From contig NZ_JAPCIO010000003.1 of NCBI RefSeq assembly GCF_025909975.1, positions 62,001 to 126,000 on the forward strand: a stretch of DNA of 64,000 nt. Direction: 5' to 3'. The stretch is from Flavobacterium lacisediminis (lineage in GTDB: Bacteria > Bacteroidota > Bacteroidia > Flavobacteriales > Flavobacteriaceae). Of the stretch, positions 5,798 to 18,099 are shown piece after piece. Both the position numbers and the translations under genes were made by a program. Positions within the stretch are counted from its first letter, which is position 1; the number at the start of each line of letters is the position of its first letter. A model generated the notes under the pieces. That model saw nothing but the letters and a program-made list of their open reading frames with translations, made no database searches and was not told the origin of the DNA.

Positions 5798-6613
5798 ATG
5801 ACCAATTTACAAGCTACAATAGAACAAGCATGGGAAAATCGTGCTTTATTACAAGAAGAAACTACGCAAAAAGCTATCAGAGAAGTTATCGAATTATTAG
5901 ATAGCGGAAAACTTCGTGTTGCTGAACCAGTTGAAAATGGCTGGCAAGTAAACGAATGGGTTAAAAAAGCAGTAGTGATGTACTTCCCTATTCAAAAAAT
6001 GGAAACTTGGGAATCGGGTATTTTTGAATATCATGATAAAATGTTGTTGAAACGCAATTATGCAGAAAAAGGTATTCGTGTGGTTCCAAATGCTGTAGCA
6101 AGATATGGCGCTTATATTTCAAGTGGTGTAATTTTAATGCCAAGTTATGTAAACATTGGTGCATATGTAGATGAAGGTACAATGGTAGATACTTGGGCAA
6201 CCGTAGGAAGTTGTGCGCAAATTGGAAAACATGTTCACCTTTCTGGTGGTGTTGGAATTGGTGGCGTTTTAGAACCATTACAAGCCGCTCCAGTAATTAT
6301 TGAAGATGGTGCTTTCATCGGTTCAAGATGTATTGTTGTAGAAGGTGTTCATGTTGGAAAAGAAGCAGTTTTAGGTGCGAACGTATGTTTGACAGGTTCT
6401 ACCAAAATTATTGATGTTACAGGCGATGAGCCGATAGAATACAAAGGAGTTGTTCCGGCTCGTTCGGTAGTAATTCCAGGAAGTTATACTAAGAAGTTCC
6501 CAGCGGGAGATTATCAAGTGCCTTGTGCAATTATCATCGGACAAAGAAAACCTTCAACCGATTTGAAGACTTCTTTAAATGATGCCTTAAGGGAATATAA
6601 CGTAGCCGTTTAG
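5798..6613 (+). CDS. dapD: 2,3,4,5-tetrahydropyridine-2,6-dicarboxylate N-succinyltransferase
   Basis: The 271-residue protein has the usual DapD length. It transfers succinyl from succinyl-CoA to tetrahydrodipicolinate in the lysine/meso-diaminopimelate pathway, which feeds peptidoglycan. An N-terminal helical domain (LQATIEQAWENRALL) is followed by the left-handed beta-helix hexapeptide repeats (YVNIGAYVDEGTMVDTW, GVGIGGVLEPLQAAPVIIED, VLGANVCLTGSTKI). The C-terminal segment includes PCAIIIGQRKPSTDLK. A strong promoter lies directly upstream. The GT9 gene starts 4 bp after the stop and is probably co-transcribed. Confidence 0.97.
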   Translation: MTNLQATIEQAWENRALLQEETTQKAIREVIELLDSGKLRVAEPVENGWQVNEWVKKAVVMYFPIQKMETWESGIFEYHDKMLLKRNYAEKGIRVVPNAVARYGAYISSGVILMPSYVNIGAYVDEGTMVDTWATVGSCAQIGKHVHLSGGVGIGGVLEPLQAAPVIIEDGAFIGSRCIVVEGVHVGKEAVLGANVCLTGSTKIIDVTGDEPIEYKGVVPARSVVIPGSYTKKFPAGDYQVPCAIIIGQRKPSTDLKTSLNDALREYNVAV

Positions 6614-6617
6614 ATAA

Positions 6618-7670
6618 ATGAAAGTACTTGTCATACAAATTAAGATGATTGGTGACGTACTGGCAAGTACTGTCATTTGCGAAGCTATTAAAAAAGCATA
6701 TCCAAAATGCGAAATGCATTATTTGATTCAAAAAAACACTTTCCCTGTGGTGGAAAACAATCCATTTATTGACAAAGTCTTGTTTTTTGAAGAAAGTAAA
6801 CACAAAGGATTAGGAGGATTATTTCGTTTAGGAACGGAATTAAAACTAGAAAAATATGACACCGTAATTGATGTTTACGGAAAGTTTCAAAGTTTAATCC
6901 CAACCTATTTAAGCGGTGCAAAAAAACGAATTGGAACTTATAAATGGTATTCGAAACTTTTCTTAACAGAAACTGTTATTCCAGATACGGAATGTAATGG
7001 AACTGCTAATGCTTTCCGAATTTTATTAGCAAAAACAGCTATAAAAAAGGAAGTTCCACAAATTTTTCCAAAAATTCATTTAACACAATTGGAAATTGAA
7101 AACGCCAAAAACCAAATTGCAAGCCAATTAGACGTTACAAAAAAAATTGTAATGATAAGTGTTTTAGGAAGTGGAAAAAACAAAAGTTTACCTGATGCTT
7201 CTATGGCAAATGTTTTAAATACCATAGCCGCAACTGCTGATGTGCAATTGGTTTTCAATTATATGCCAAACCAACAAGAAGAAGCTAAAGCAATTTTTGA
7301 TTTGTGTGATGCTAATGCGCAATCTAAAATTGTATTCGATTTTTATGTAAAAGGATTACGCGGATTCTTAGCCGTATTATCGCAAGGTGATGCATTAGTA
7401 GGTAATGAAGGTGGTGCCACAAATATGTCAAAAGCCTTAAATATACCAACTTTTACAATTTATGCCCCTTGGATAAACAGAACCTCATGGAATATTTTTG
7501 AAGAAACAGGTTTACATGAAATTGTACACCTATCAGACTATTTCCCAGAGTTGTATAAAAACAAACACCCCAAAAACTTTAAAGAAAAAGCTTTGGAGTG
7601 GTATGATAAATTGAATCCTGAACTGTTTTCTGATAAACTACAGCAATTTGTAAAAAAGATTAGTCAATAA
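6618..7670 (+). CDS. Glycosyltransferase family 9 (heptosyltransferase-like)
   Basis: The 350-residue GT-B enzyme resembles ADP-heptose:LPS heptosyltransferases. The N-terminus KVLVIQIKMIGDVLASTVICEA is the family pattern with the conserved Asp. The C-terminal donor-binding half has ISVLGSGKNKSLPDASM and VGNEGGATNMSKALNIPTFTIYAPW, the GT9 counterpart of the usual VGNDSGPMH loop. It would act at the inner membrane on LPS core sugars. It starts 4 bp after dapD and opens the glycan locus. Its 3' end overlaps the convergent epimerase gene by 11 bp. Confidence 0.88.
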   Translation: MKVLVIQIKMIGDVLASTVICEAIKKAYPKCEMHYLIQKNTFPVVENNPFIDKVLFFEESKHKGLGGLFRLGTELKLEKYDTVIDVYGKFQSLIPTYLSGAKKRIGTYKWYSKLFLTETVIPDTECNGTANAFRILLAKTAIKKEVPQIFPKIHLTQLEIENAKNQIASQLDVTKKIVMISVLGSGKNKSLPDASMANVLNTIAATADVQLVFNYMPNQQEEAKAIFDLCDANAQSKIVFDFYVKGLRGFLAVLSQGDALVGNEGGATNMSKALNIPTFTIYAPWINRTSWNIFEETGLHEIVHLSDYFPELYKNKHPKNFKEKALEWYDKLNPELFSDKLQQFVKKISQ

Positions 7671-8604
7671 ACTTCTCTTTATACCATTTTACTTGTTCTT
7701 CAAGCCCTTGCTTTAAGGTTACTTTAGGCGTATAATTCAATAGTTTTTTTGCTTTTTCAATTACTGCGGCGGTACGTTGCTGATCTCCTTTTCTTGGAGG
7801 CATATTATCAATAATTAAGGTTTTGTTCATGATTTGCTCTACTGCAGTAATTCCGTCTTGCGTAGTGTTCACTTCATCCGTACCTAAATTGATAATTTCA
7901 CCATCAACCACATCTTCTTTTCCAATAATTGCAGCTAATCCATCAACGATATCGCCAACATAAGTAAAACTTCTTTCATGTTTAACACTGCCCTCAAATA
8001 ATGGAAACGGCTTATCATTATAAAGATTATCAATTAATTTCGTGTATAATTTTTCTGGTCTTTCTCTTGGTCCAAAAACAGAATACAAACGAATAGAACA
8101 AGCTTTTATTTTTCCAAGACGCTGTAATCCTAACACTAATTGTTCGGCTGCTAATTTAGTAGAACCATAAAAAGAAACAGGTTGCGCTGGAATGGTTTCA
8201 TCTACCGTAGCTTCAATTCCATAAACAGAAGAAGTAGCAATATTTATAAACGATTTTAGATTTGGATTATAAGCCGACACAGCATCCAACAAATTTTGTG
8301 TTGCATAGATGTTATTTCTAACATACTCTTCTAGAGTAGTATCGGATGAAATTCCAGGTTGGGCAGCCAAATGATAGATATAATCATATGGTTTTTCAAA
8401 AACTTTTGATAAGTCTTCGTTCAAATCTACTCTAAAAATAGAGACACCTTTAGCTTCTAAATCTTTAGCATTCATTTCCTTTAAAGCAGGACTGTAATAA
8501 TCGTTAAAATTATCTAATCCTACCACTTCGTGACCTAATGTTACTAATTTTTCACACAAGTGAGACGCTATAAACCCTGCTGCTCCTGTTACTAATATTC
8601 GCAT
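7660..8604 (-). CDS. NAD-dependent nucleotide-sugar epimerase/dehydratase
   Basis: The 314-residue protein is an extended short-chain dehydrogenase/reductase. It has the Rossmann motif GAAGFIASHLCEKL at residues 7-20, the second-site Asp in VGLDNFNDYYS and the catalytic Tyr-x3-Lys in FYGSTKLAAEQ. NxRLYSVFGP and RSFTYVGDIVDG, typical of UDP-sugar 4-epimerases, follow. UDP-glucose or UDP-glucuronate 4-epimerase is the closest guess, but substrate cannot be fixed. It is the last gene of a minus-strand glycan operon, 5 bp after the GT2 gene. Confidence 0.88.
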   Translation of the reverse strand: MRILVTGAAGFIASHLCEKLVTLGHEVVGLDNFNDYYSPALKEMNAKDLEAKGVSIFRVDLNEDLSKVFEKPYDYIYHLAAQPGISSDTTLEEYVRNNIYATQNLLDAVSAYNPNLKSFINIATSSVYGIEATVDETIPAQPVSFYGSTKLAAEQLVLGLQRLGKIKACSIRLYSVFGPRERPEKLYTKLIDNLYNDKPFPLFEGSVKHERSFTYVGDIVDGLAAIIGKEDVVDGEIINLGTDEVNTTQDGITAVEQIMNKTLIIDNMPPRKGDQQRTAAVIEKAKKLLNYTPKVTLKQGLEEQVKWYKEKFID

Positions 8605-8609
8605 ACCTT

Positions 8610-9428
8610 TTATTTTTCTTCTTTCTTAATTCCGAAAGGTGTCCATTTAATTTTTTTATCGCGCACTTCTTTTCTGATGGCTAAGTTAGCCGCTAACGAT
8701 TCTGGTGTTTTATAGCCACGTGCATGATCTAAATGTAAAACAATCGCTTTGTGACGTATTTGTTTTCCTTTAACTCCATAATTCTCTAAACGTTCTCCAA
8801 ATTCTCTATCCGGTCCACCATATTTCATTCTTTCATCATAACCATTGATAGCAATCATATCATCTTTAAATCCAGAAGAATTACAATTGTTAAAAGAAGG
8901 TGTTGTAGGCGAAATGATATCTAAAATTTTAGCGATAATTCCGTCTGAACCTAATTTTAATGTATTTGAAAAGTCTAATTTCTCAATTTTGTTCAACCAT
9001 TTTACATCAAAACATCTTTGAGAAATAATGTCATCTATAGAAATAGCTTTGCTAGTTTTCATTGGAAGTTTACAATATCCTCCAGATAAAAACTTTCCTT
9101 TTTCTGCTTGTTGGGCATGAACTTCTACGAAATCAGCTCTTGGAATACAATCACCATCGGTCATGATAATAAATTCATAAGCTGCTTCTACAATAGCTAC
9201 ATTTAAAATTTCTTGTCTTCTATATCCTAAATCTTCATGCCACAAATGGCGTACTGGAACAGGATAATTTTTCGCATAAGAATCAATCAATTCTTTTGTT
9301 GAAGGTCTTGAACCATCGTCGGCAATTATTAATTCGAAATCTTTATAAGTTTGTACACTATAACCAATTAAGACTTTTTCTAGCCATTCTTCCGCATTAT
9401 AAGTACTTACTACTACTGATATTTTCAT
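8610..9428 (-). CDS. Family 2 glycosyltransferase with galactosyltransferase-type C-terminus
   Basis: The 272-residue GT-A enzyme begins KISVVVSTYNAEEWLEKVL, with FELIIADDGS and the metal-binding TDGDCIPR motif. The C-terminal part MKYGGPDREFGERLENYG is the Glyco_transf_7C-like acceptor/donor motif of beta-1,4-galactosyltransferase-type GT2 enzymes. It shares most motifs with the gene just upstream (9452-10264), so the two are tandem paralogues. The product presumably adds a sugar to the LPS core or a glycan repeat unit on the cytoplasmic side. Confidence 0.9.
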   Translation of the reverse strand: MKISVVVSTYNAEEWLEKVLIGYSVQTYKDFELIIADDGSRPSTKELIDSYAKNYPVPVRHLWHEDLGYRRQEILNVAIVEAAYEFIIMTDGDCIPRADFVEVHAQQAEKGKFLSGGYCKLPMKTSKAISIDDIISQRCFDVKWLNKIEKLDFSNTLKLGSDGIIAKILDIISPTTPSFNNCNSSGFKDDMIAINGYDERMKYGGPDREFGERLENYGVKGKQIRHKAIVLHLDHARGYKTPESLAANLAIRKEVRDKKIKWTPFGIKKEEK

Positions 9429-9451: not shown

Positions 9452-10264
9452 TTATTCTGAAACAATTCCGTTTTTAATTCTAATAATATTATGTTTACTA
9501 TTGTAACGTCTAATATCTAAATTAGCTTCTATTTTTTGAGCATCTGCATATCCTCTTTCATGATGCAAATGTAAGCAAATTGCCTCGTATCTTATTTGTT
9601 TCGCTAAGATTCCTAAATTAAACAAGCGTTCGCCCACTTCCCTATCTAATCCTCCGTAATGCATGTTTTGATTAAAACCGTTGATAGCCAATAAATCCTC
9701 TTTAAAAACTGATGAATTATGACCGTTGAACGTTTTCTTCGTTGTTGTTATCCAGTTCATGAAACTGGCAAAATATGTATTTTTTGTTAGTTTTGTTACT
9801 TTAAAATTAGCTTTCAAACCGTTATTAATCAGCCATTTAATTGAAAAACAATTTTGATTAATAATATCTTCTTCCGAAATTAAATTTGATAATGACAAAG
9901 GTAATTTAAAATATCCACCTGATAAAAAATATCCTTTTTGTTGCTGTTTCAAATGTGTAGTAACAAAATCATTTCTTGGAATACAATCGCCATCGGTAAA
10001 AAGAAGATATTCTGCATTAGCTTTTAAAATAGCCTTGTTTAAAATTTCTGATTTACGAAAACCATTATCCTCTTGCCAAACATGAAGAATTGGATATTTA
10101 AATTTAGAAGAAAAACTTTCAATAACTTGTTTGGTTTTTATTGTAGAACCGTCATCTGCAATTACCAATTCAAAATCTGTTTCAGTTTGAACACTGTAAC
10201 CAATTAGCACTTTACGTAACCAATCTTCCGAATTGTATGTTGTAATTATTACAGATAATTTCAT
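9452..10264 (-). CDS. Family 2 glycosyltransferase (tandem paralogue)
   Basis: The 270-residue GT-A enzyme is built exactly like its neighbour: KLSVIITTYNSEDWLRKVLIGYSVQT, LVIADDGS, FTDGDCIPR and MHYGGLDREVGERLFNLG. Similarity between the two is strong in the first 120 residues and in the C-terminal motif, and weaker at about 150-190, where acceptor specificity is likely to differ. It lies second in the minus-strand operon, 25 bp after the kinase-like gene. Confidence 0.9.
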   Translation of the reverse strand: MKLSVIITTYNSEDWLRKVLIGYSVQTETDFELVIADDGSTIKTKQVIESFSSKFKYPILHVWQEDNGFRKSEILNKAILKANAEYLLFTDGDCIPRNDFVTTHLKQQQKGYFLSGGYFKLPLSLSNLISEEDIINQNCFSIKWLINNGLKANFKVTKLTKNTYFASFMNWITTTKKTFNGHNSSVFKEDLLAINGFNQNMHYGGLDREVGERLFNLGILAKQIRYEAICLHLHHERGYADAQKIEANLDIRRYNSKHNIIRIKNGIVSE

Positions 10265-10289: not shown

Positions 10290-11054
10290 CTACTTTTTCC
10301 AAAATTTTAATCGTTTTTTAATTTTCTTTCTTCTATTAAAATTATCCAAAAAATTATTCGATTCTTTCATTAAAAGAGCGTAGAAAACATCCGATTGAAC
10401 TCCATATAATGGTGCATAAGCTTCACTAAATACTTTGTTGATGTAACTATCATTCGTTAGCTTTGCAATATTCTTAACACGTTGATTTAATGATAATTCA
10501 TCATGAAAACTCATTCGATTTAAATCGACCAGATAAAAGTTATATTCATTATCACCAACTTTTTTAATTAAAGTATTTCCAGCAGTGTTATCTATGAATT
10601 CAATTCCTAGATTGTGAATTTTAAAAAAGAAACTTGCCGATTGTTTAATAATTTCCTCTCGATTAGGATAATTTGGTTCAAAAATCAAATTTCGAAACAT
10701 CAAATCGACGTCTTGATGTAGGCTAAAATAATAGCTTTCTTCTAAACCTTTAACGGTTTTATTTTCATAATAAGCAAAAGGTTGCGGTGTCCCGATTCCT
10801 TTACTTAATAAAATTTGGGCATATTCAAAGGAACGTTGCGCTTTTGATTTACGTATATAACCATAAATAAAAGCATTTAGTAAATTTGGCCTTTTAAATG
10901 ATTTTATATTGACTGAAAAATCTCCAACATTAAAAACTTTGATAACATTTCGTTTTTCAGAACCAATTAATTCACCTGAAGTTTTAAAATTCTCTAAAAG
11001 AGAATCAAATTGAGGTTGAAGATATTCATAATCAGGGTGAAATATTTTTTTCAT
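10290..11054 (-). CDS. Lipopolysaccharide kinase-like (Kdo/InaA family) protein
   Basis: The 254-residue protein has a protein-kinase-like fold. VIKVFNVGDFSVNIKSFKRPN supplies the ATP-site Lys. The catalytic loop is degenerate (GIEFIDNTAGNTLI), and FYLVDLNRMSF takes the place of the DFG region as VDLNR, as in the KdkA/WaaP group of LPS core kinases. It would phosphorylate a core sugar on the inner leaflet. It is the first gene of the minus-strand glycan operon, led by a TACTTTTG element at 11079-11086. Confidence 0.8.
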   Translation of the reverse strand: MKKIFHPDYEYLQPQFDSLLENFKTSGELIGSEKRNVIKVFNVGDFSVNIKSFKRPNLLNAFIYGYIRKSKAQRSFEYAQILLSKGIGTPQPFAYYENKTVKGLEESYYFSLHQDVDLMFRNLIFEPNYPNREEIIKQSASFFFKIHNLGIEFIDNTAGNTLIKKVGDNEYNFYLVDLNRMSFHDELSLNQRVKNIAKLTNDSYINKVFSEAYAPLYGVQSDVFYALLMKESNNFLDNFNRRKKIKKRLKFWKK

Positions 11055-11128: not shown

Positions 11129-11980
11129 ATGTTTTATCACTTTCTAATCACACGTTTTAATTTAAAAAATCCAGAATGGGATGTTACCAAAAACAATGAA
11201 GCTCTTTTAGATGAAAAATGGATGGATGAGCGCTTGGAATTATTTTCTAATTACTGCTTACCATCCGTCATAAATCAATCTAATAAAAACTTTAAATGGC
11301 TATTGTTTTTTGATAGTAGTACAAGTGATAAATATCGAACAATAATTGAAAGCATACTTCAAAAAAACGATTTAATAGTTCCTTTTTATATTGACGGTAT
11401 GCCTAAATTTAATGAGGCAATTTTAAATTATTTAAAAGAAAATGCTGCTGACAAAGACTACTTAATTACGTCGCGCATTGACAATGACGATTGTATCCAT
11501 AAAGATTTCATAAACGAAATCCAGAAACAATTCAACAAGCAAGAATTTTTAGCCATTGATAATATTAACGGTTACACTTTACAGGTAGAACCTAACTTTA
11601 TTTTAGGAAAAAAAGAACATATTTTTAATCCTTTTATCAGTTTAATCGAAAGAAACGACAATCCTAAAACCGTATGGCATTATGTGCATAACATGTGGAA
11701 AAAAGAACCACGAATTATTCATTTATCTGAAAAAAGATTATGGCTTTCTGTAATTCATGGAAAAAACAAAGTCAATGAATTTGATGGTTACGGAAATATT
11801 AAATGGAGTGATATTAATTCAGATTTTATTATTTCAGAGAGTAAAAACAAAGAAATCATTACTACGCAACTTCCGTTTTCAAATTGGTGGTTTTTAAGTC
11901 TTAAAAATTATCTTTATGTAAAAATGGTACTATTAAGCAAACAAATAAAAAAAGGGCTGGGAATTTATAAAGTCAAGTAA
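11129..11980 (+). CDS. Putative rhamnosyltransferase-family glycosyltransferase
   Basis: The 283-residue protein starts FYHFLITRFNLKNPEW. It continues with WMDERLELFSNYCLPSVINQ and NFKWLLFFDSST, the hallmarks of the PF11316-type putative rhamnosyltransferases. SRIDNDDCIHKDFINEI provides an acidic DxDD motif equivalent to the GT-A DxD. It is likely a cytoplasmic GT acting on the surface glycan. It is divergent from the LPS-kinase operon, and the methyltransferase gene follows 24 bp later. Confidence 0.8.
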   Translation: MFYHFLITRFNLKNPEWDVTKNNEALLDEKWMDERLELFSNYCLPSVINQSNKNFKWLLFFDSSTSDKYRTIIESILQKNDLIVPFYIDGMPKFNEAILNYLKENAADKDYLITSRIDNDDCIHKDFINEIQKQFNKQEFLAIDNINGYTLQVEPNFILGKKEHIFNPFISLIERNDNPKTVWHYVHNMWKKEPRIIHLSEKRLWLSVIHGKNKVNEFDGYGNIKWSDINSDFIISESKNKEIITTQLPFSNWWFLSLKNYLYVKMVLLSKQIKKGLGIYKVK

Positions 11981-12004: not shown

Positions 12005-12724
12005 ATGAATGATTATAGTACAATTTTTGAAAAAAGAGCAACCGACTATCATTTAGCGATGCAACAGTTTCCAAATGCAAGATTACATGAATTCAATAAC
12101 TTAATTTCATCTGCAGATTTTTCAGTCATAAATAAAGTTTTAGACATTCCTTCTGGTGGTGGCTACTTAAAGCATTTTCTACCACATCATGTAAATGTAA
12201 CATCAACGGATTTTTCTGAGGGATTTACAAGTAATGACATAAAACTTGTTTCTCCTGAAAAATTACCTTTTGAATCGAACACTTTTGATGTCGTTTTTTC
12301 ACTTAGTGGCATGCATCATTTAAAAAATGTTCCTCTTTTTATTGAAGAATGTTTGAGAATAATTAAAAATGAAGGGAATTTTATTTTTGCAGATGTAAAA
12401 AAAGGAACATCAATCGATGTATTTTTAAATCAATTTGTTAATGAATATAATTCTTTAGGTCATAAAGGTGATTTCTTTCATGAAGATTATTTTGAAAAAT
12501 ATCCTAACATTCAAAACAAAATAGTTGAATGTAAATACAATGAATATCCATTTGTTTTTAATAGCAAAGAAGAAATGATTTTGTTTTTTAAACTCTTTTT
12601 TGGGTTAGATAAAGCAAATGACATTGCAATTTTTGAAGGCATTCATGATATTTTAGGATTACAATATACTAAAACAGGAATTGAAGTAAATTGGGGGCTT
12701 TTAAGATATATATTTATTAAATAG
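12005..12724 (+). CDS. Class I SAM-dependent methyltransferase
   Basis: The 239-residue protein has motif I VLDIPSGGGYLKHFLP (about residues 44-59), motif II near VTSTDFSEGF, and LPFESNTFDVVFSLSGMHHL (motifs III/IV), the Methyltransf_11 pattern. Its place among glycosyltransferases suggests methylation of a sugar or its precursor, an inference from context only. Its stop lies 8 bp from the stop of the convergent TupA-like gene. Confidence 0.85.
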   Translation: MNDYSTIFEKRATDYHLAMQQFPNARLHEFNNLISSADFSVINKVLDIPSGGGYLKHFLPHHVNVTSTDFSEGFTSNDIKLVSPEKLPFESNTFDVVFSLSGMHHLKNVPLFIEECLRIIKNEGNFIFADVKKGTSIDVFLNQFVNEYNSLGHKGDFFHEDYFEKYPNIQNKIVECKYNEYPFVFNSKEEMILFFKLFFGLDKANDIAIFEGIHDILGLQYTKTGIEVNWGLLRYIFIK

Positions 12725-12732
12725 TGCTTGAA

Positions 12733-13614
12733 TTATACATTTGGTAATTGTATTAGTTTAGCATATTCTGTATTAAATCTCTCTATTGAGCTTTTTATTA
12801 ATCCTGCGCTTGTAAAAAAAGTAAGCTCTCCAAACGTAATTTTATTGCCTACTGAATATAAATCTACACGCATAAAAATAAATCCATCTGATAATTTTGT
12901 TGCCACTTCTAGCATCTCATCTAGATTACTTGGCTTTAAGAAGTCAGATTTAATAAAAATAGGATTGTGTTTTTTTGGTAAAATTTTATTCCACTCCAAA
13001 TCATAAAAACATTTTTGAACATTTTCTAATTCTTTTTTTTCGGCATATATGTATTTTGGAGCGCCATTATAACAAAAAAATTTGTACTCTATCATAGAGT
13101 TATCATCGATTTTAGAAATATATTTTTCGGCGATAATGCGTGGCTTTACATTTTTATAAATAGCTTCTTGAAACTTATTGTAATAATTTTGAGATAAAAA
13201 ACGATTTAATTTTTTCTTTGTTTGCTTGATATTTAATATACTTTTATCTTCTACAATAATATTATATCCAGAACCATGTGTTCCTTTCAAAACAAATTGA
13301 TTGGGCAACGTATCAAAATTTATTTGAGATACAGAATCATAAATACCAAAAAGTTCGTTTAGATATTTTTTACCAACCTTTTTTTCTACATAACTCCTAA
13401 CTTCATATTTATCCACATAATTACCATAATTTTCTTTATAATAATTAAGTTTAAGCCATAGCAATTTTTCCGTAAGTTCTTTTGGATTTTTCAAATCGGG
13501 CCTATGATTATTTTTTATGAGATATTGCAAAATTGTAATTTTCTCATCATTACCCTTTGTAAGTTTTAATAACTTAATGGTTAATTTATAATATTTTCTT
13601 TTAAAAAAATTCAT
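12733..13614 (-). CDS. TupA-like ATP-grasp ligase (paralogue 1)
   Basis: The 293-residue protein is of the ATPgrasp_TupA type (PF14305). Family landmarks are EKLLWLKLNYYKENYGNYVDKYEVR and PNQFVLKGTHGSGYNIIV (ATP-grasp glycine-rich nucleotide loop). MIEYKFFCYNGAPKYIYAE and FIFMRVDLYSVG with FGELTFF supply the metal- and ATP-binding acidic residues. The founding member TupA takes part in teichuronopeptide synthesis in an alkaliphilic Bacillus, so an acid-amine ligation on a surface polymer is expected. Last of a three-copy tandem array. Confidence 0.85.
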   Translation of the reverse strand: MNFFKRKYYKLTIKLLKLTKGNDEKITILQYLIKNNHRPDLKNPKELTEKLLWLKLNYYKENYGNYVDKYEVRSYVEKKVGKKYLNELFGIYDSVSQINFDTLPNQFVLKGTHGSGYNIIVEDKSILNIKQTKKKLNRFLSQNYYNKFQEAIYKNVKPRIIAEKYISKIDDNSMIEYKFFCYNGAPKYIYAEKKELENVQKCFYDLEWNKILPKKHNPIFIKSDFLKPSNLDEMLEVATKLSDGFIFMRVDLYSVGNKITFGELTFFTSAGLIKSSIERFNTEYAKLIQLPNV

Positions 13615-13632
13615 ATCTTAGTTTTCATAAAT

Positions 13633-14514
13633 TCAATTATTTGGCAATTGAATTAAATCTCCAAATTCTTTATTAAATCTTTCAATCGAACTTCTGATAA
13701 GTCCAGCATTTGAAAAGAAAGTAAGCTCACCGAAAATAATTTTATTTCCAATAGAATACATATCTACTCGCAAAAAAATAAAATCTTGAGATAATTTTTC
13801 GGCAATCTGAATCATTTCTTCAAAATTTTCAGGCTTTTTAAAATCAGCTTCATGAAAAGCAGAAATATATTTCTCAGGTAAAACTTGATTCCAATTCAAA
13901 TCATAAAAGCTTTTTCTCAAATCCTTTGATTTATTTTTCTGAACAAAGACATATTTTGGTTTGCCATGAAAACAATGAAATTTGTAATCAATAAGAGCAT
14001 TACTGTCTATTTCTGAAATATACTTTTCAATTAAAATTCTAGGTTTTAAATCTTTATATATTTTTTCACGAAATTTATGATAATAATTTTCAGACAGAAA
14101 GTGATTTAATTTGTTTTTGATTACTTCAAGATTAAGTTCATTCTTATCTTTAACGATAATATTATAACCCGAACCATGAGTACCTTTTAAAACAAACTGA
14201 CTAGGTAAAGCCTCAAAATTAATAGCAGATACAGAATCATAAACCCCGAAAATACTATTTAAATATTTTTCACCTACTTTATTTTTTACATAACTCCTTA
14301 CCTCATATTTATCAGCATAACTACCATAACTTTCGGTGTAGTAATTAAGTTTGAGCCAAAGTGTTTTTTCCATAAACTCTTTTGGATTAACTAAATTAGG
14401 TTTTACACCATTTTTCAAAAAGTACTGATATATCGAAATTAATTCATCATTTGCTCCAACAAGTTTAAGTAAACTTATATATAATTTATAACATTTTCGT
14501 TTTAAAAAAATCAT
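13633..14514 (-). CDS. TupA-like ATP-grasp ligase (paralogue 2)
   Basis: The 293-residue protein is very close to paralogue 1 in length and motif order: VDKYEVR-type ADKYEVR, SQFVLKGTHGSGYNIIV, IDYKFHCFHGKPKYVF, FIFLRVDMYSIG and FGELTFFSNAGL. The pair look like a recent tandem duplication. Divergence concentrates in the N-terminal 40 residues and around 195-235, the likely acceptor- or amine-recognition surface. It lies 18 bp before paralogue 1 on the minus strand, in the same operon. Confidence 0.85.
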   Translation of the reverse strand: MIFLKRKCYKLYISLLKLVGANDELISIYQYFLKNGVKPNLVNPKEFMEKTLWLKLNYYTESYGSYADKYEVRSYVKNKVGEKYLNSIFGVYDSVSAINFEALPSQFVLKGTHGSGYNIIVKDKNELNLEVIKNKLNHFLSENYYHKFREKIYKDLKPRILIEKYISEIDSNALIDYKFHCFHGKPKYVFVQKNKSKDLRKSFYDLNWNQVLPEKYISAFHEADFKKPENFEEMIQIAEKLSQDFIFLRVDMYSIGNKIIFGELTFFSNAGLIRSSIERFNKEFGDLIQLPNN

Positions 14515-14560
14515 TTACACATCAAATTATCAATGTTGTTTTTAACTAAAAATATAAAAA

Positions 14561-15439
14561 TTAACTTGGCAAACTTATCAATTCTCCAAATTCCTTATTA
14601 AATCGTTCCACGGTTAAACGTTGCTTGCCACCCCATGGAAAAAATGTTAATTCACCGAAAAAAACTTTATCTTTAATTGAATATAAATCAACTCTCACAA
14701 AAATAAAGTCATGGGCTAATTTATTAGCTATTGTTATCATTTCGTCAAAATTTTCGGGTCTTTTCATGTCCAAATTTAAGTAATTCATAGTATTTGAATC
14801 ATCTTCAATTTTTTTCCAATTCAAATCATAATAACAATTTCTATATTTTCCATCGTGAAATGTTTTTACCCAAACATACTTAGCCATTCCATGAAAGCAG
14901 AAAAACTTATAATCAACAATATAATTATCTGCAGATTGTGACAAATATTCTTCAGCTAAGATTCTAGGTTGAATTGCACTATAAATTGCTTCACCATTTG
15001 TTTTACTATAATCCTCTTCTAAGAATTTTTGGAGTTGTTTTTTTGCCTTGTTCCAATTCAATTTTGATTTATCAGGAACTATAATATTATATCCTGAACC
15101 ATGTGTTCCTTTTAAAGCAAACTGATTAGGCAAAGTATCTAAATTAATTTCGTCAACTGAATCATATATTGCAATAAAACCATTAAGATATTGGCTCCCA
15201 ATTGTTTCATCTACAAACTTTCTAACAGCATATTTATCTACCAAATAACCATAATGCTCATTGTAATAATTAAATTTTAACCATTGAATTTTTTCCATAA
15301 ATTCAATGGGTTGGTCTAAATTTAACTCTTTACCATTTTTATACAAATACTTAGCCTTAGAGATTTTAACATCACTTGCACCAACTAATTTAAGTAACCC
15401 AATATAAACTTGATAATATTTTCTTTTAAAAAAATTCAT
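14561..15439 (-). CDS. TupA-like ATP-grasp ligase (paralogue 3)
   Basis: The 292-residue protein is the first member of the tandem array, 8 bp after the GT4 gene. It has VDKYAVRKFVDETIG, NQFALKGTHGSGYNIIV, VDYKFFCFHGMAKYVWVK and FIFVRVDLYSIKD with FGELTFFPWGG. It is more distant from paralogues 1 and 2 than they are from each other, notably at 130-150 (an insertion EEDYSKTNGEAIY) and in the C-terminal FPWGGKQRLTVE segment. Confidence 0.85.
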   Translation of the reverse strand: MNFFKRKYYQVYIGLLKLVGASDVKISKAKYLYKNGKELNLDQPIEFMEKIQWLKFNYYNEHYGYLVDKYAVRKFVDETIGSQYLNGFIAIYDSVDEINLDTLPNQFALKGTHGSGYNIIVPDKSKLNWNKAKKQLQKFLEEDYSKTNGEAIYSAIQPRILAEEYLSQSADNYIVDYKFFCFHGMAKYVWVKTFHDGKYRNCYYDLNWKKIEDDSNTMNYLNLDMKRPENFDEMITIANKLAHDFIFVRVDLYSIKDKVFFGELTFFPWGGKQRLTVERFNKEFGELISLPS

Positions 15440-15447
15440 GTTAAATT

Positions 15448-16554
15448 TTATTTTTTTAATAAAACCTCATTCAATTCATCGAACATCTTTTTTGCAATAA
15501 CTTCTTTAGTAAAATTATCAATTAAGAATTGACGCCCATTTACGGTACATTTCTCTTGAAGTAATTTATTATTCAACATTTGTTCTACTTTATCAGCAAA
15601 TGAAATTGGGTTACCCACTTCTGCCAACAATCCTGTTTCATTATCCATTACAATCTCAGGAATTCCACCTGCATTTGCGGCAACTATCGGAACTCTACAT
15701 GCATACGACTCTAAAAGTACGCCACCCGTTGGCTCATTATTAGAAGTAAATAGAAATAAGTCAAATTCCGGGAGAATTTGTGGAATATCTTTTCTAAAAC
15801 CGGCGAATATAATATCATTTTGCAATCCTAAAGAAGCTACTTGTTCTCTAACTTCCGTTTCTAAAGATCCTTTACCAACTAATATATATTTAGCCTTTAC
15901 ACCACGCTTAACCAATTCTGCCACAGTATTGACCCAGGTTTTATGATCTTTAAAACCCGTAAACTCAGCAATATTACCTATTATTTTATAATCGTTGGGT
16001 ATATTAAACTCTTGATGTAATATTCCTAATTTAGATTGTTTTTCAAATTTATTAATATCCGTAACACTTCCAACAACACAAAGCTTAGAGTGATCTTTAA
16101 CTGCAAATTTTAAAACATTAACTACAGGTTCTGAGACACAAATTATTTTCTTAATTCCTTTGTAATTATATTTCCATTTTCTTAAAAAGTTAGTATCAAC
16201 TCGTCTTATCAACGTTCTGCATAAAACTAAAGGAACTTTTAAACCATAAAACATAGCTGACAAAACTGCCATAGTATGAGACTGACTACTGTGAATAAAA
16301 ATCACATCTGCATTTTTCTCTTTTGAGATCAAACTCAATTGCTTTGCAAACTTAAAATCGTATTCTGATTTATAAGGAAATGAAATTACATTCATTCCTT
16401 TTTCAGTTGCAATTTTAAACACCTCTGAATTCTCAGGACAAACAATCCATTGATCTTCTACATAACCATATTCTTTGAATGCTTCATATAAATATATTAT
16501 TTTTTGCTCATGCCCTCTCCAACCCTTTGAGGCAGTAAATTGAATTAATCGCAT
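15448..16554 (-). CDS. Family 4 glycosyltransferase
   Basis: The 368-residue GT-B enzyme has an N-terminal acceptor half opening RLIQFTASKGWRGHEQKIIYLYEAF. The donor half has YILVGKGSLETEVREQ, IIFAGFRKDIPQILPEFDLFLFTSNNEPTG and VPIVAANAGGIPEIVMDNETGLL, the GT4 (Glycos_transf_1) signature with the conserved E-x7-E. It heads the minus-strand operon that continues into the three TupA-like genes, suggesting that glycan extension and ligation are coupled. Confidence 0.93.
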   Translation of the reverse strand: MRLIQFTASKGWRGHEQKIIYLYEAFKEYGYVEDQWIVCPENSEVFKIATEKGMNVISFPYKSEYDFKFAKQLSLISKEKNADVIFIHSSQSHTMAVLSAMFYGLKVPLVLCRTLIRRVDTNFLRKWKYNYKGIKKIICVSEPVVNVLKFAVKDHSKLCVVGSVTDINKFEKQSKLGILHQEFNIPNDYKIIGNIAEFTGFKDHKTWVNTVAELVKRGVKAKYILVGKGSLETEVREQVASLGLQNDIIFAGFRKDIPQILPEFDLFLFTSNNEPTGGVLLESYACRVPIVAANAGGIPEIVMDNETGLLAEVGNPISFADKVEQMLNNKLLQEKCTVNGRQFLIDNFTKEVIAKKMFDELNEVLLKK

Positions 16555-16571
16555 CTTTTATATAATTTACA

Positions 16572-16579
16572 CAAATATA
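16572..16579 (-). promoter_or_regulatory. -7 element of the GT4-TupA operon
   Basis: TATATTTG on the minus strand fits TAnnTTTG and lies 17 bp before the ATG. On the plus strand TATATTTA (16620-16627) is a near match for the divergent fourth TupA-like gene. Confidence 0.5.
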
Positions 16580-16643
16580 GTTTCTTATTTATTTTTTCAC
16601 GATTTTTATTAAAAAAACATATATTTACATACATTTTTAAAGC

Positions 16644-17528
16644 ATGGAAAATACAAAAAACAAAACTTTTAAATCAATTATTTTAAGGGTTTTAAAAAAC
16701 TTTAAATTTTTACCCCCTCAAATATATATTCCTATTCAATATGAACACGTTACTGGTAAAAAACTTAATTTAAAAAAACCAATTACGTTTAACGAAAAAA
16801 TTCAATGGTATAAATTATTCTATAAAAATCCAATTTTAAAAAAGTTAGTAGATAAATATCACGTAAGAGAATTTGTTGAAAAAACAATTGGAACAAAATA
16901 TTTAAACGAACTATATGGCGTTTACGAAAATTCAAATGAAATTGATTTTAATAAACTACCGAATAAATTCGTATTAAAATGCGTTCATGGAAGTGGATTC
17001 AATATTTGTGTTAAAGACAAGTCATCTTTAAACATTGCTAAGACAAAAGAAAAATTAGACAAATGGCAAAGAAAAAACTTCTATAACAAAGGAAAAGAAT
17101 GGGCTTACAAAGGAATTAAGCCGCTGATTATTGCGGAAAAATATCTTGAAGAATTTGACAAAGAAGTTATCAATGACTATAAGTTTTTTTGCTTTGATGG
17201 AGAAATAAAATTTATTCAAATCGATATTGAAAGAAGTGTAAAAGATTATAGATGCTATTATGATTCTAATTGGAAAAAACTTTCTTTTTCTACCAAAAAG
17301 AACAATTTTTTTGAAGAAGAACTTGAAAGACCAAAAAATCTAGAAGAAATGAATTCTATTGTGCAAAAATTAGCAAAGAATTTTCCTTTTGTTAGAGTTG
17401 ATTTGTATTCTATAGAAAATAATCTCGTTTTTGGTGAAATGACCTTTTATCCAGGTAATGGAACAGTTGAATTTGAACCAAAGAATATGAATATAACTAT
17501 TGGTAATTATTTTAAACTTCCAAACTAA
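16644..17528 (+). CDS. TupA-like ATP-grasp ligase (paralogue 4, opposite strand)
   Basis: The 294-residue protein has the same domain as the three tandem copies but is clearly divergent: FNEKIQWYKLFYKNPILKK, VDKYHVREFVEKTIG, NKFVLKCVHGSGFNICV and INDYKFFCFDGEIKFIQ. FPFVRVDLYSIENNLVFGEMTFYPGNG completes the set. In the glycine-rich loop Cys replaces the Gly of the other copies (KCVHGSG versus KGTHGSG). It is transcribed divergently from the GT4-TupA operon and is followed by the tRNA-modification gene 4 bp downstream. Confidence 0.85.
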   Translation: MENTKNKTFKSIILRVLKNFKFLPPQIYIPIQYEHVTGKKLNLKKPITFNEKIQWYKLFYKNPILKKLVDKYHVREFVEKTIGTKYLNELYGVYENSNEIDFNKLPNKFVLKCVHGSGFNICVKDKSSLNIAKTKEKLDKWQRKNFYNKGKEWAYKGIKPLIIAEKYLEEFDKEVINDYKFFCFDGEIKFIQIDIERSVKDYRCYYDSNWKKLSFSTKKNNFFEEELERPKNLEEMNSIVQKLAKNFPFVRVDLYSIENNLVFGEMTFYPGNGTVEFEPKNMNITIGNYFKLPN

Positions 17529-17532
17529 TCAT

Positions 17533-18099
17533 ATGGACATCAATACTGAAGTACACAACGCATACGAAGTCATTAAAAACGGAGGCATCATCTTGTACCC
17601 AACAGATACTGTTTGGGGAATTGGATGCGATGCTACAAATGAAGACGCCGTAAAAAAAATCTATGCTTTAAAACAACGCGAAGAAACTAAAAGCATGATT
17701 GTTCTACTAAATGGAGAACGCATGATGTACAACGTTTTCAAAGAAATTCCAGAAGTAGCTTGGCAAATTTTAGATTTATCCGAAAAACCAACGACTTTAA
17801 TTTTAGACAATCCTAGAAATGTTGCTAAAAACATTATAGCTGAAGACAATACATTAGGTGTTCGAATGGTAACCGAACCATTTTGCTTTAAACTAATGGA
17901 ACGCATGAAAAAACCATTGGTATCCACCTCAGCAAATATATCGGGAATGTTTACACCAAAAACTTTCAAAGAAATTAGTCCCGAAATTATAAAAGGTGTG
18001 GACTATGTAGTAAATTTGCACCACGATAAAGTTTGCAAAAATCCTTCTACGATTATTAAATTAGGTTTAGATAGTCAGGTAAAAGTGATTAGAAAATAA
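17533..18099 (+). CDS. L-threonylcarbamoyladenylate synthase (TsaC/Sua5/YciO family)
   Basis: The enzyme makes the threonylcarbamoyl-AMP used for the t6A37 modification of ANN-decoding tRNAs. GIILYPTDTVWGIGCDATN, YALKQREETKSMIVLLN (KxR..K-S/T-x-N substrate pocket), LGVRMVTEP and PLVSTSANISG are the YrdC-fold landmarks. The ATG at 17533 (MDINTEVHNA) is chosen over the frame start at 17500, which would lie inside the TupA-like gene. The 188-residue length fits the single-domain TsaC/YciO type. I cannot exclude the YciO subgroup. Confidence 0.9.
   Translation: MDINTEVHNAYEVIKNGGIILYPTDTVWGIGCDATNEDAVKKIYALKQREETKSMIVLLNGERMMYNVFKEIPEVAWQILDLSEKPTTLILDNPRNVAKNIIAEDNTLGVRMVTEPFCFKLMERMKKPLVSTSANISGMFTPKTFKEISPEIIKGVDYVVNLHHDKVCKNPSTIIKLGLDSQVKVIRK

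Follow-up and report, generated by a model that had tools for sequence, protein, structure and literature searches.

The DNA analysed here is a stretch of 64,000 nucleotides from Flavobacterium lacisediminis (contig NZ_JAPCIO010000003.1, positions 62,001 to 126,000), called the window below, in which four intact open reading frames (ORFs) for TupA-like ATP-grasp proteins, named T1 to T4, lie at 12733-17528. All four match the Pfam family PF14305 with scores of 177-220 bits, where the cut-off is 25 (E-values 3.4e-55 for T1, 3.1e-58 for T2, 6.8e-52 for T3 and 4.7e-65 for T4), in agreement with the original prediction, which was made from the sequence alone. A glycosyltransferase gene of family GT4 is followed on the minus strand by T3, T2 and T1 at spacings of 8, 46 and 18 nt, respectively, and T4 is divergent from GT4 with 89 nt between them, so the predicted tandem of three copies with a divergent fourth is found as described. 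The ATP-grasp landmark motifs claimed for the four genes were found too, slightly altered in places: T3 has FALKGTHGSGYN, T4 has FVLKCVHGSGFN and FGEMTFY, and T2 has RVDMYS. Protein identity is 64% between T1 and T2, 51-53% between T3 and either of these, and 41-42% between T4 and the others.

T1-T4 are the sole PF14305 matches in this genome (2.86 Mb, 36 contigs, 99.95% complete), and the same search found the family in none of 14 control genomes. Above the cut-off, PF14305 was found in 34 of 395 Bacteroidota genomes and in 24 of 398 genomes of the genus Flavobacterium. Here and below, three samplings of 398 genus genomes (for TupA and GT4, for the methyltransferase and for the QueC-like protein) are taken as one set, with genome labels recurring among them. 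More than three TupA genes occur only in the genome of the window among these 398, and apart from the window's own locus none of 80 relative loci contains more than three copies. Between species the locus carries 1 to 4 copies, and the four copies here are the upper end of a copy-number continuum. A damaged copy was seen in genome G543, where the TupA gene (C97:368-1087) is interrupted by a stop.

The four genes belong to a variable stretch, probably a lipopolysaccharide (LPS) core locus as discussed below, which is bounded by a dapD gene (5798-6613) on one side and by YrdC and CCA-transferase genes on the other. The same flanks were found in F. sp. LMO8, F. proteolyticum, F. amniphilum, F. 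tibetense, F. sp. H122 and F. luminosum, and similar arrangements occur in Winogradskyella and Mangrovimonas. The CCA-transferase of the window is 94-98% identical to those of named Flavobacterium records (L007, L008, L055 and L070). Between the shared flanks lie varying subsets of GT9, GT2, kinase-like, PF11316, GT4 and TupA genes. Other Flavobacteriaceae loci, for example those of F. proteolyticum, F. tibetense and Mangrovimonas, are therefore alike in flanks and gene kinds but hold at most three TupA genes, against four here. For TupA genes of the T4 type, the preceding ORF matches a GT2 of the window (E <=1e-5) in 19 of 27 other loci.

In one genome the flanks and the contents of the locus part company. 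Locus L119 (G012 C3:266000-285500) has a CCA enzyme 100% identical to that of the window, the most similar among 31 genomes, together with a dapD product at 100% and a YrdC at 98%. No PF14305 match was found in this genome, mostly different genes stand between the near-identical flanks, and it keeps only diverged homologues of two GT2 proteins (70% and 35%), the kinase-like protein (42%), GT9 (39%) and GT4 (28%). With flanks so similar and contents so different, the locus seems to have been replaced as a block. The coordinates of the genes are listed in Table 1.

Table 1. Genes of the variable locus in the window, and QueC-like genes near TupA genes in other Flavobacterium loci
Feature	Position	Strand	Remarks
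T1, TupA-like ATP-grasp protein (PF14305), 293 aa	12733..13614	-	terminal gene of the GT4-T3-T2-T1 run
T2, TupA-like ATP-grasp protein (PF14305), 293 aa	13633..14514	-	
T3, TupA-like ATP-grasp protein (PF14305), 292 aa	14561..15439	-	adjoins GT4
T4, TupA-like ATP-grasp protein (PF14305), 294 aa	16644..17528	+	in a clade of 31 (clade B)
dapD-type N-succinyltransferase	5798..6613	+	left flank of variable locus
GT9 (heptosyltransferase family) glycosyltransferase	6618..7670	+	
NAD-dependent sugar epimerase/dehydratase	7660..8604	-	
GT2 glycosyltransferase a	8610..9428	-	
GT2 glycosyltransferase b	9452..10264	-	
3-deoxy-D-manno-oct-2-ulosonic acid (Kdo)/WaaP-type sugar kinase-like protein	10290..11054	-	PF06293 18.1 bits, below cut-off 21.3
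Putative rhamnosyl transferase	11129..11980	+	PF11316
S-adenosylmethionine (SAM)-dependent methyltransferase	12005..12724	+	PF08241; convergent with T1
GT4 glycosyltransferase	15448..16554	-	PF00534; heads the run, 8 nt from T3
L-threonylcarbamoyladenylate synthase (Sua5/YrdC)	17500..18099	+	right flank; true start probably inside ORF
QueC-like PP-loop proteins, about 240 aa	L055:10796-11527; L008:5342-6064; L067:11688-12398; L070:11709-12434		near Flavobacterium TupA genes

The G+C content is 25-28% over the TupA genes and 30-37% in 48 of 63 scanning windows. A promoter and terminator scan was uninformative: it gave 54 promoter-like sites where 50.8 were expected, and 0 terminator-like sites where 2.2 were expected. 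On the minus strand at 16572-16579, upstream of the GT4-T3-T2-T1 run, stands TATATTTG, which resembles the Bacteroidota -7 promoter element.

Divergence, selection and fold of the four paralogues

T1 and T2 had been regarded as recent duplicates, and this is ruled out by their identity (64% in protein, 70.5% in DNA), by a synonymous divergence (dS) of about 1.7 and by separate orthologues in F. tibetense (85% for T1 and 75% for T2), which likewise stand in this order, 18 nt apart. T2 orthologues are found in five further Flavobacterium loci (L007, L008, L055, L068 and L073), and the nearest relatives of T3 come from Flavobacterium sp. H122 (59%) and Mangrovimonas (56-57%). In a tree of 92 proteins, built from ORFs of 260-390 aa with the window copies L001-L004 excluded, T1-T3 share a clade of 18 (support 100/100), and T4 belongs to a separate one of 31 (100/98). 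All members of the two clades are from Flavobacteriaceae, except for one Bacteroidetes metagenome-assembled genome without a family. Ten long proteins are outside the size range of this tree (L040, L044, L045, L047, L049, L051, L056, L060, L081 and L082); the short second ORF of L065 is also outside it, and L023 yielded no ORF match.

Each of the four genes is under purifying selection. The ratio of nonsynonymous to synonymous divergence (dN/dS) is 0.11 for T1, 0.09-0.15 for T2, 0.12-0.14 for T4 and, against its nearest relative, 0.16 for T3, while in comparison with F. proteolyticum the neighbouring GT4 and GT2a have 0.04 and the CCA enzyme 0.01-0.02. The ratios are low yet above those of the neighbours, and thus T1-T4 are maintained but evolve faster than GT4, GT2a and the CCA enzyme. 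Across 78 aligned proteins including T1-T4, 13 columns are invariant (T2 numbering: K50, K69, P104, K110, E150, Y153, K178, G184, P228, R249, D251, E263 and T265), among which K110, K178, R249, D251 and E263 are likely to be catalytic. At columns conserved to at least 85%, T1-T4 deviate at six positions only, four in T1 (F47L, D176E, F182Y, G285A) and two in T3 (F100L, V108A). Taken together, these results show T1-T4 to be genuine, long-established and selectively maintained representatives of a known ligase family.

The concentration of divergence in the N-terminal 40 residues and around 195-235 was also correctly predicted: identity among T1-T4 is low at alignment columns 1-40 (0.42, 0.33) and 181-240 (0.34, 0.33, 0.40), and lies at 0.42-0.72 elsewhere. 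The idea that these regions mark changes in the acceptor pocket did not hold. Among 22 fixed differences between T1 and T2 (the T1 group being two sequences), 3 are in residues 1-40 and 2 in residues 195-235, which is no enrichment; both regions are variable inside orthologue groups too, and they therefore say little about acceptor pockets. Seven of the 22 cluster at residues 176-195, the YKFxCF hairpin, but this was noticed post hoc (scan p 0.014-0.023) and, with a T1 group of two sequences, is only suggestive.

The ATP-grasp fold was modelled for T2 and T4 with AlphaFold, using alignments of 78 sequences from the window and locus proteins (78 of 90 available), and it is assigned to T1 and T3 by homology. 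Both models show the fold, with a mean predicted local distance difference test (pLDDT) score of 94.7 for T2 and 95.8 for T4. The top Foldseek matches of T2 are ArgX, RizA, LysX/ArgX, Ddl and RimK. In the VIA-align comparison, the top match is Ddl (6u1k) for T2 (Z 13.3; 221 residues, 4.8 A) as well as T4 (Z 14.3; 213 residues, 3.8 A), and ArgX/LysX score about 12-13 against both models. No fold class other than ATP-grasp is found among the best 50 rows of each structural comparison (Foldseek for T2, VIA-align for T2 and T4). Ddl, ArgX/LysX and RimK thus share the predicted fold of T2 and T4, but they are only 5-16% identical to them in the alignments listed and act on different substrates. Sequence searches of the PDB gave no convincing homologue: one produced weak matches down to E 0.049, the top four being leucyl-tRNA synthetase chains, and the other produced none at E <=1.

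Partner genes of the TupA clades

The TupA paralogue clades track different neighbours, namely the methyltransferase gene for the T1/T2 type and the QueC-like PP-loop gene for a sister clade. In a tree of 60 rows, which omits L139 for its interrupted gene, the T1/T2 clade (100/100) has 8 distinct genes, all of them located in a gene group with the methyltransferase, and all 7 distinct genes of the other clade (98/86) have a QueC-like gene adjoining or one gene off. The enzyme type itself is already known, and the new element is that TupA clades are partner-specific. In a search of open-access literature, one paper was found to use the term 'TupA-like ATP-grasp', and no account of these Flavobacterium genes, their partner genes or partner-specific clades was found among the matches listed; PMC11167607 and PMC12419801 were set aside, as the passages retrieved from them concern other ATP-grasp proteins.

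Close homologues of the methyltransferase are present in 9 of the 398 genus genomes. TupA genes are held by 6 of these 9, compared with 24 of 398 overall (Fisher p 1.9e-6, a value that ignores relatedness), and in all six the two genes adjoin. In at least two of these six pairs (L068 and L073), a single T2-type gene lies with the methyltransferase outside the LPS locus. The QueC-like protein passes the cut-off of PF06508 in all four cases tested (23.8-27.6 bits against 22), but the one tested against the NCBIfam QueC model scored 24.9, far under the cut-off of 150.3, and it is therefore not QueC itself. Its gene is present in 13 of the 398 genomes, 10 of which hold TupA (Fisher p 2.1e-11, again with relatedness ignored); it adjoins TupA in 7 of these 10 and lies within 5 kb in 9. 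The genome of the window has the methyltransferase, and no QueC-like match was found in it. F. proteolyticum combines TupA ligases of three types, namely T2, T4 and the QueC-partnered type.

Gene adjacency of this kind suggests a shared pathway. As a tentative model, to which we give somewhat less than an even chance, the Flavobacterium TupA clades may be exchangeable cassettes, in which the ligase would put a substituent on the LPS core, to be tailored by a partner specific to the clade. The partner would be the SAM methyltransferase for the T1/T2 clade and the QueC-like PP-loop enzyme for the sister clade, with possibly none for T3 and T4. Shuffled inside a single syntenic locus, and at times beyond it, such cassettes could diversify the chemistry of the core and give methylated or further amidated substituents; none of these was found in the Flavobacterium glycans described in the literature searched. 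If partners do tailor the added group, the QueC-like gene would give the PP-loop superfamily a further setting in glycan modification.

Several observations count against a strict pairing. Both co-occurrence tests treat related genomes as independent, and 3 of the 9 genomes with the methyltransferase have no TupA. A QueC-partnered TupA gene of F. sp. H122 (L067:10755-11699) and the TupA genes of G464 and G498, two genomes that hold the QueC-like gene too, fall outside the QueC-partnered clade, and the TupA gene of G790, which is beside a methyltransferase gene, forms a long branch that does not belong to the T1/T2 clade. GT4 was rejected as a fixed partner of T3: it adjoins other TupA types in relatives, and TupA is missing from 5 of the 9 genus genomes that carry a close homologue of GT4.

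Two minor observations concern the surroundings of methyltransferase genes. The G790 TupA gene beside one is broken into two ORFs (L159:5991-6284 and 6335-6958). In three genomes without TupA, a protein of 430-440 aa with the motifs SGGVDA and CxxCxKC is encoded beside the methyltransferase (L156:5370-6695, L157:7556-8842 and L158:5179-6465). The sole NCBIfam match of the one tested is weak and argininosuccinate-synthase-related, so that the PP-loop-like label of this protein is a reading of its motifs.

Probable substrate and reaction of the TupA-like ligases

A gene of PF04413, the Kdo transferase family, is present elsewhere in the genome of the window. This gene, the GT9 and kinase-like genes of the locus and the composition of the Capnocytophaga core (Kdo, mannose, galactosamine (GalN), galactose and L-rhamnose, given as unpublished results in PMC3342949) point to an LPS core, and judging from gene families and synteny the variable locus is probably of this kind. 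The original prediction of ATP-grasp ligases acting on a surface glycan, with amide decoration as the best guess, is kept, and its surface polysaccharide is narrowed to a probable LPS core.

We consider it fairly probable that T1-T4 are ATP-grasp amidoligases which modify the LPS core or an oligosaccharide that extends it. The ligase would activate a carboxylate with ATP, most likely that of a uronate among the core sugars or the Kdo carboxyl, and would join it to a small amine such as an amino acid or ethanolamine, as reported for the C-terminal domain of Cj1438 (Cj1438C) in Campylobacter jejuni. This domain is reported to join the C6 carboxylate of glucuronic acid to serinol-phosphate or ethanolamine-phosphate with ATP (PMC11800379, PMC12409886). 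The sources describe it as a TupA-like ATP-grasp fold that is fused to a glycosyltransferase and acts on a surface glycan of C. jejuni HS:2, and the likeness to T1-T4 is drawn from that description. The systems differ in that Cj1438C has a GT2 fusion, a capsule substrate and serinol-phosphate or ethanolamine-phosphate as amine, whereas the locus here, probably one for the LPS core, holds four stand-alone paralogues and no recognised amine-supply gene. The predicted addition of amino acids or short peptides is accordingly unproven, the closest enzyme found with a reported activity adding one of these two phosphates.

Comparison with other TupA proteins points the same way. Ten long TupA proteins were scanned, and in 7 of them (L040, L044, L045, L049, L051, L056 and L060) a GT2 domain is N-terminal of TupA, as in Cj1438; L040 and L045 carry extra glycosyltransferase domains. 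As for the remaining three, L047 is a methyltransferase-TupA protein, L082 carries an FkbM methyltransferase at its C-terminus and matches GT2 weakly, and L081 has no further Pfam domain. Glycan genes are often found beside TupA genes outside Flavobacteriaceae: across 39 loci and 138 neighbour proteins (138 of 145 used; counts from the best 25 of 69 families), there are 28 of Glycos_transf_1, 19 of Glycos_transf_2, 8 of PGA_cap and 5 UDP-sugar dehydrogenases. The genome of the window itself has two strong UDP-sugar dehydrogenase matches. On the enzymology of Cj1438C, the GT2-TupA fusions, the glycan-gene neighbours and the UDP-sugar dehydrogenases, amide formation on a uronate is our best guess.

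On the other side of the balance, the locus shows no recognisable gene for forming a uronic acid or supplying an amine. The kinase-like protein is below its Pfam cut-off and scores 20.2 bits against the NCBIfam Kdo kinase cut-off of 142, and the LPS-core assignment therefore rests on synteny and glycosyltransferase families. The synteny is in turn not universal in the genus: of 12 genus genomes that lack TupA at the corresponding site, 7 have both flanks in the examined stretch, 2 have only YrdC and 3 have neither. The Foldseek TM-scores of T2 are modest (0.34-0.48 by query length), and carbamoyl-phosphate synthetase and pyruvate carboxylase are nearly equal to the best matches of the T2 and T4 models (Z 12-13), for which reason the fold alone leaves the reaction unfixed.

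Ddl, RizA and RimK activate amino-acid carboxylates, and as fold relatives of T2 they would suit a reaction of opposite polarity, in which a small acid (an amino acid, malate or 2-hydroxyglutarate) is activated and joined to the free amino group of an amino sugar in the core or O-antigen; the neighbouring GT4 could next attach a sugar to this acid residue. Glycans of the family also speak for it and against activation of a sugar carboxylate: the O-polysaccharide of F. psychrophilum is reported to contain amide-linked R-malic acid, and that of Flexibacter maritimus an R-2-hydroxyglutaric acid linkage (PMC3210612), and a positively charged GalN in the C. canimorsus core is cited as unpublished (PMC3342949). 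We nevertheless regard this reaction as rather unlikely, as the sole TupA-like domain for which a reported activity was found activates the sugar's own carboxylate, and UDP-sugar dehydrogenases are among the TupA neighbours outside Flavobacteriaceae (5 of 138).

The number of copies invites two other explanations. The paralogues could be redundant, with the same specificity, and be retained for dosage; the tandem position and 64% identity of T1 and T2 would fit, and C. jejuni HS:2 is reported to retain two glycosyltransferases, about 87% identical, for one step (PMC11800379). But the T1 and T2 lineages are older than the species split, both are kept in F. tibetense and their dN/dS is low, which makes redundancy improbable. 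Alternatively, the enzymes would add successive residues to one glycan-linked peptide. Three tandem copies suggest such a series, and so does the teichuronopeptide of Bacillus halodurans, made with tupA and consisting of poly-gamma-L-glutamate and polyglucuronic acid (PMC8153356), together with the 8 PGA_cap proteins among the 138 neighbours. B. halodurans TupA names the family PF14305, to which T1-T4 belong, but its product is a Gram-positive wall polymer, whereas the present locus is Gram-negative. Furthermore, no PGA_cap protein above the cut-off, taken as a proxy for polyglutamate synthesis, was found in the genome (one match, 23.1 bits against 27), the locus holds between 1 and 4 copies depending on the species, and T2-type genes stand singly with the methyltransferase elsewhere in L068 and L073. 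Sequential peptide building is therefore very improbable.

Under the preferred reading, amide decoration of the LPS core, the four genes would probably be separate modules, with T1 and T2 belonging to the methyltransferase, T3 standing next to GT4 and T4 being a family-wide member. That each paralogue adds a different residue is plausible in view of the old divergence, separate orthology, purifying selection and different partner genes. Amide decorations alter the charge of bacterial surface glycans and the way they are recognised, and one TupA-like enzyme with a reported activity was found in the literature search. Four anciently diverged ligases with clade-specific partners predict distinct and testable core substituents in a large genus, and T1-T4 offer a natural set for studying how TupA-like ligases select amine and acceptor.

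Outside Flavobacteriaceae, the PGA_cap family (PF09587) among the TupA neighbours fits the old link between tupA and polyglutamate. Two alphaproteobacterial proteins of more than 2,000 aa (L049:6622-13386 and L060:8057-14221) combine GT2 and TupA-like ATP-grasp domains with a DUF1796 region, the latter below the cut-off in L060.

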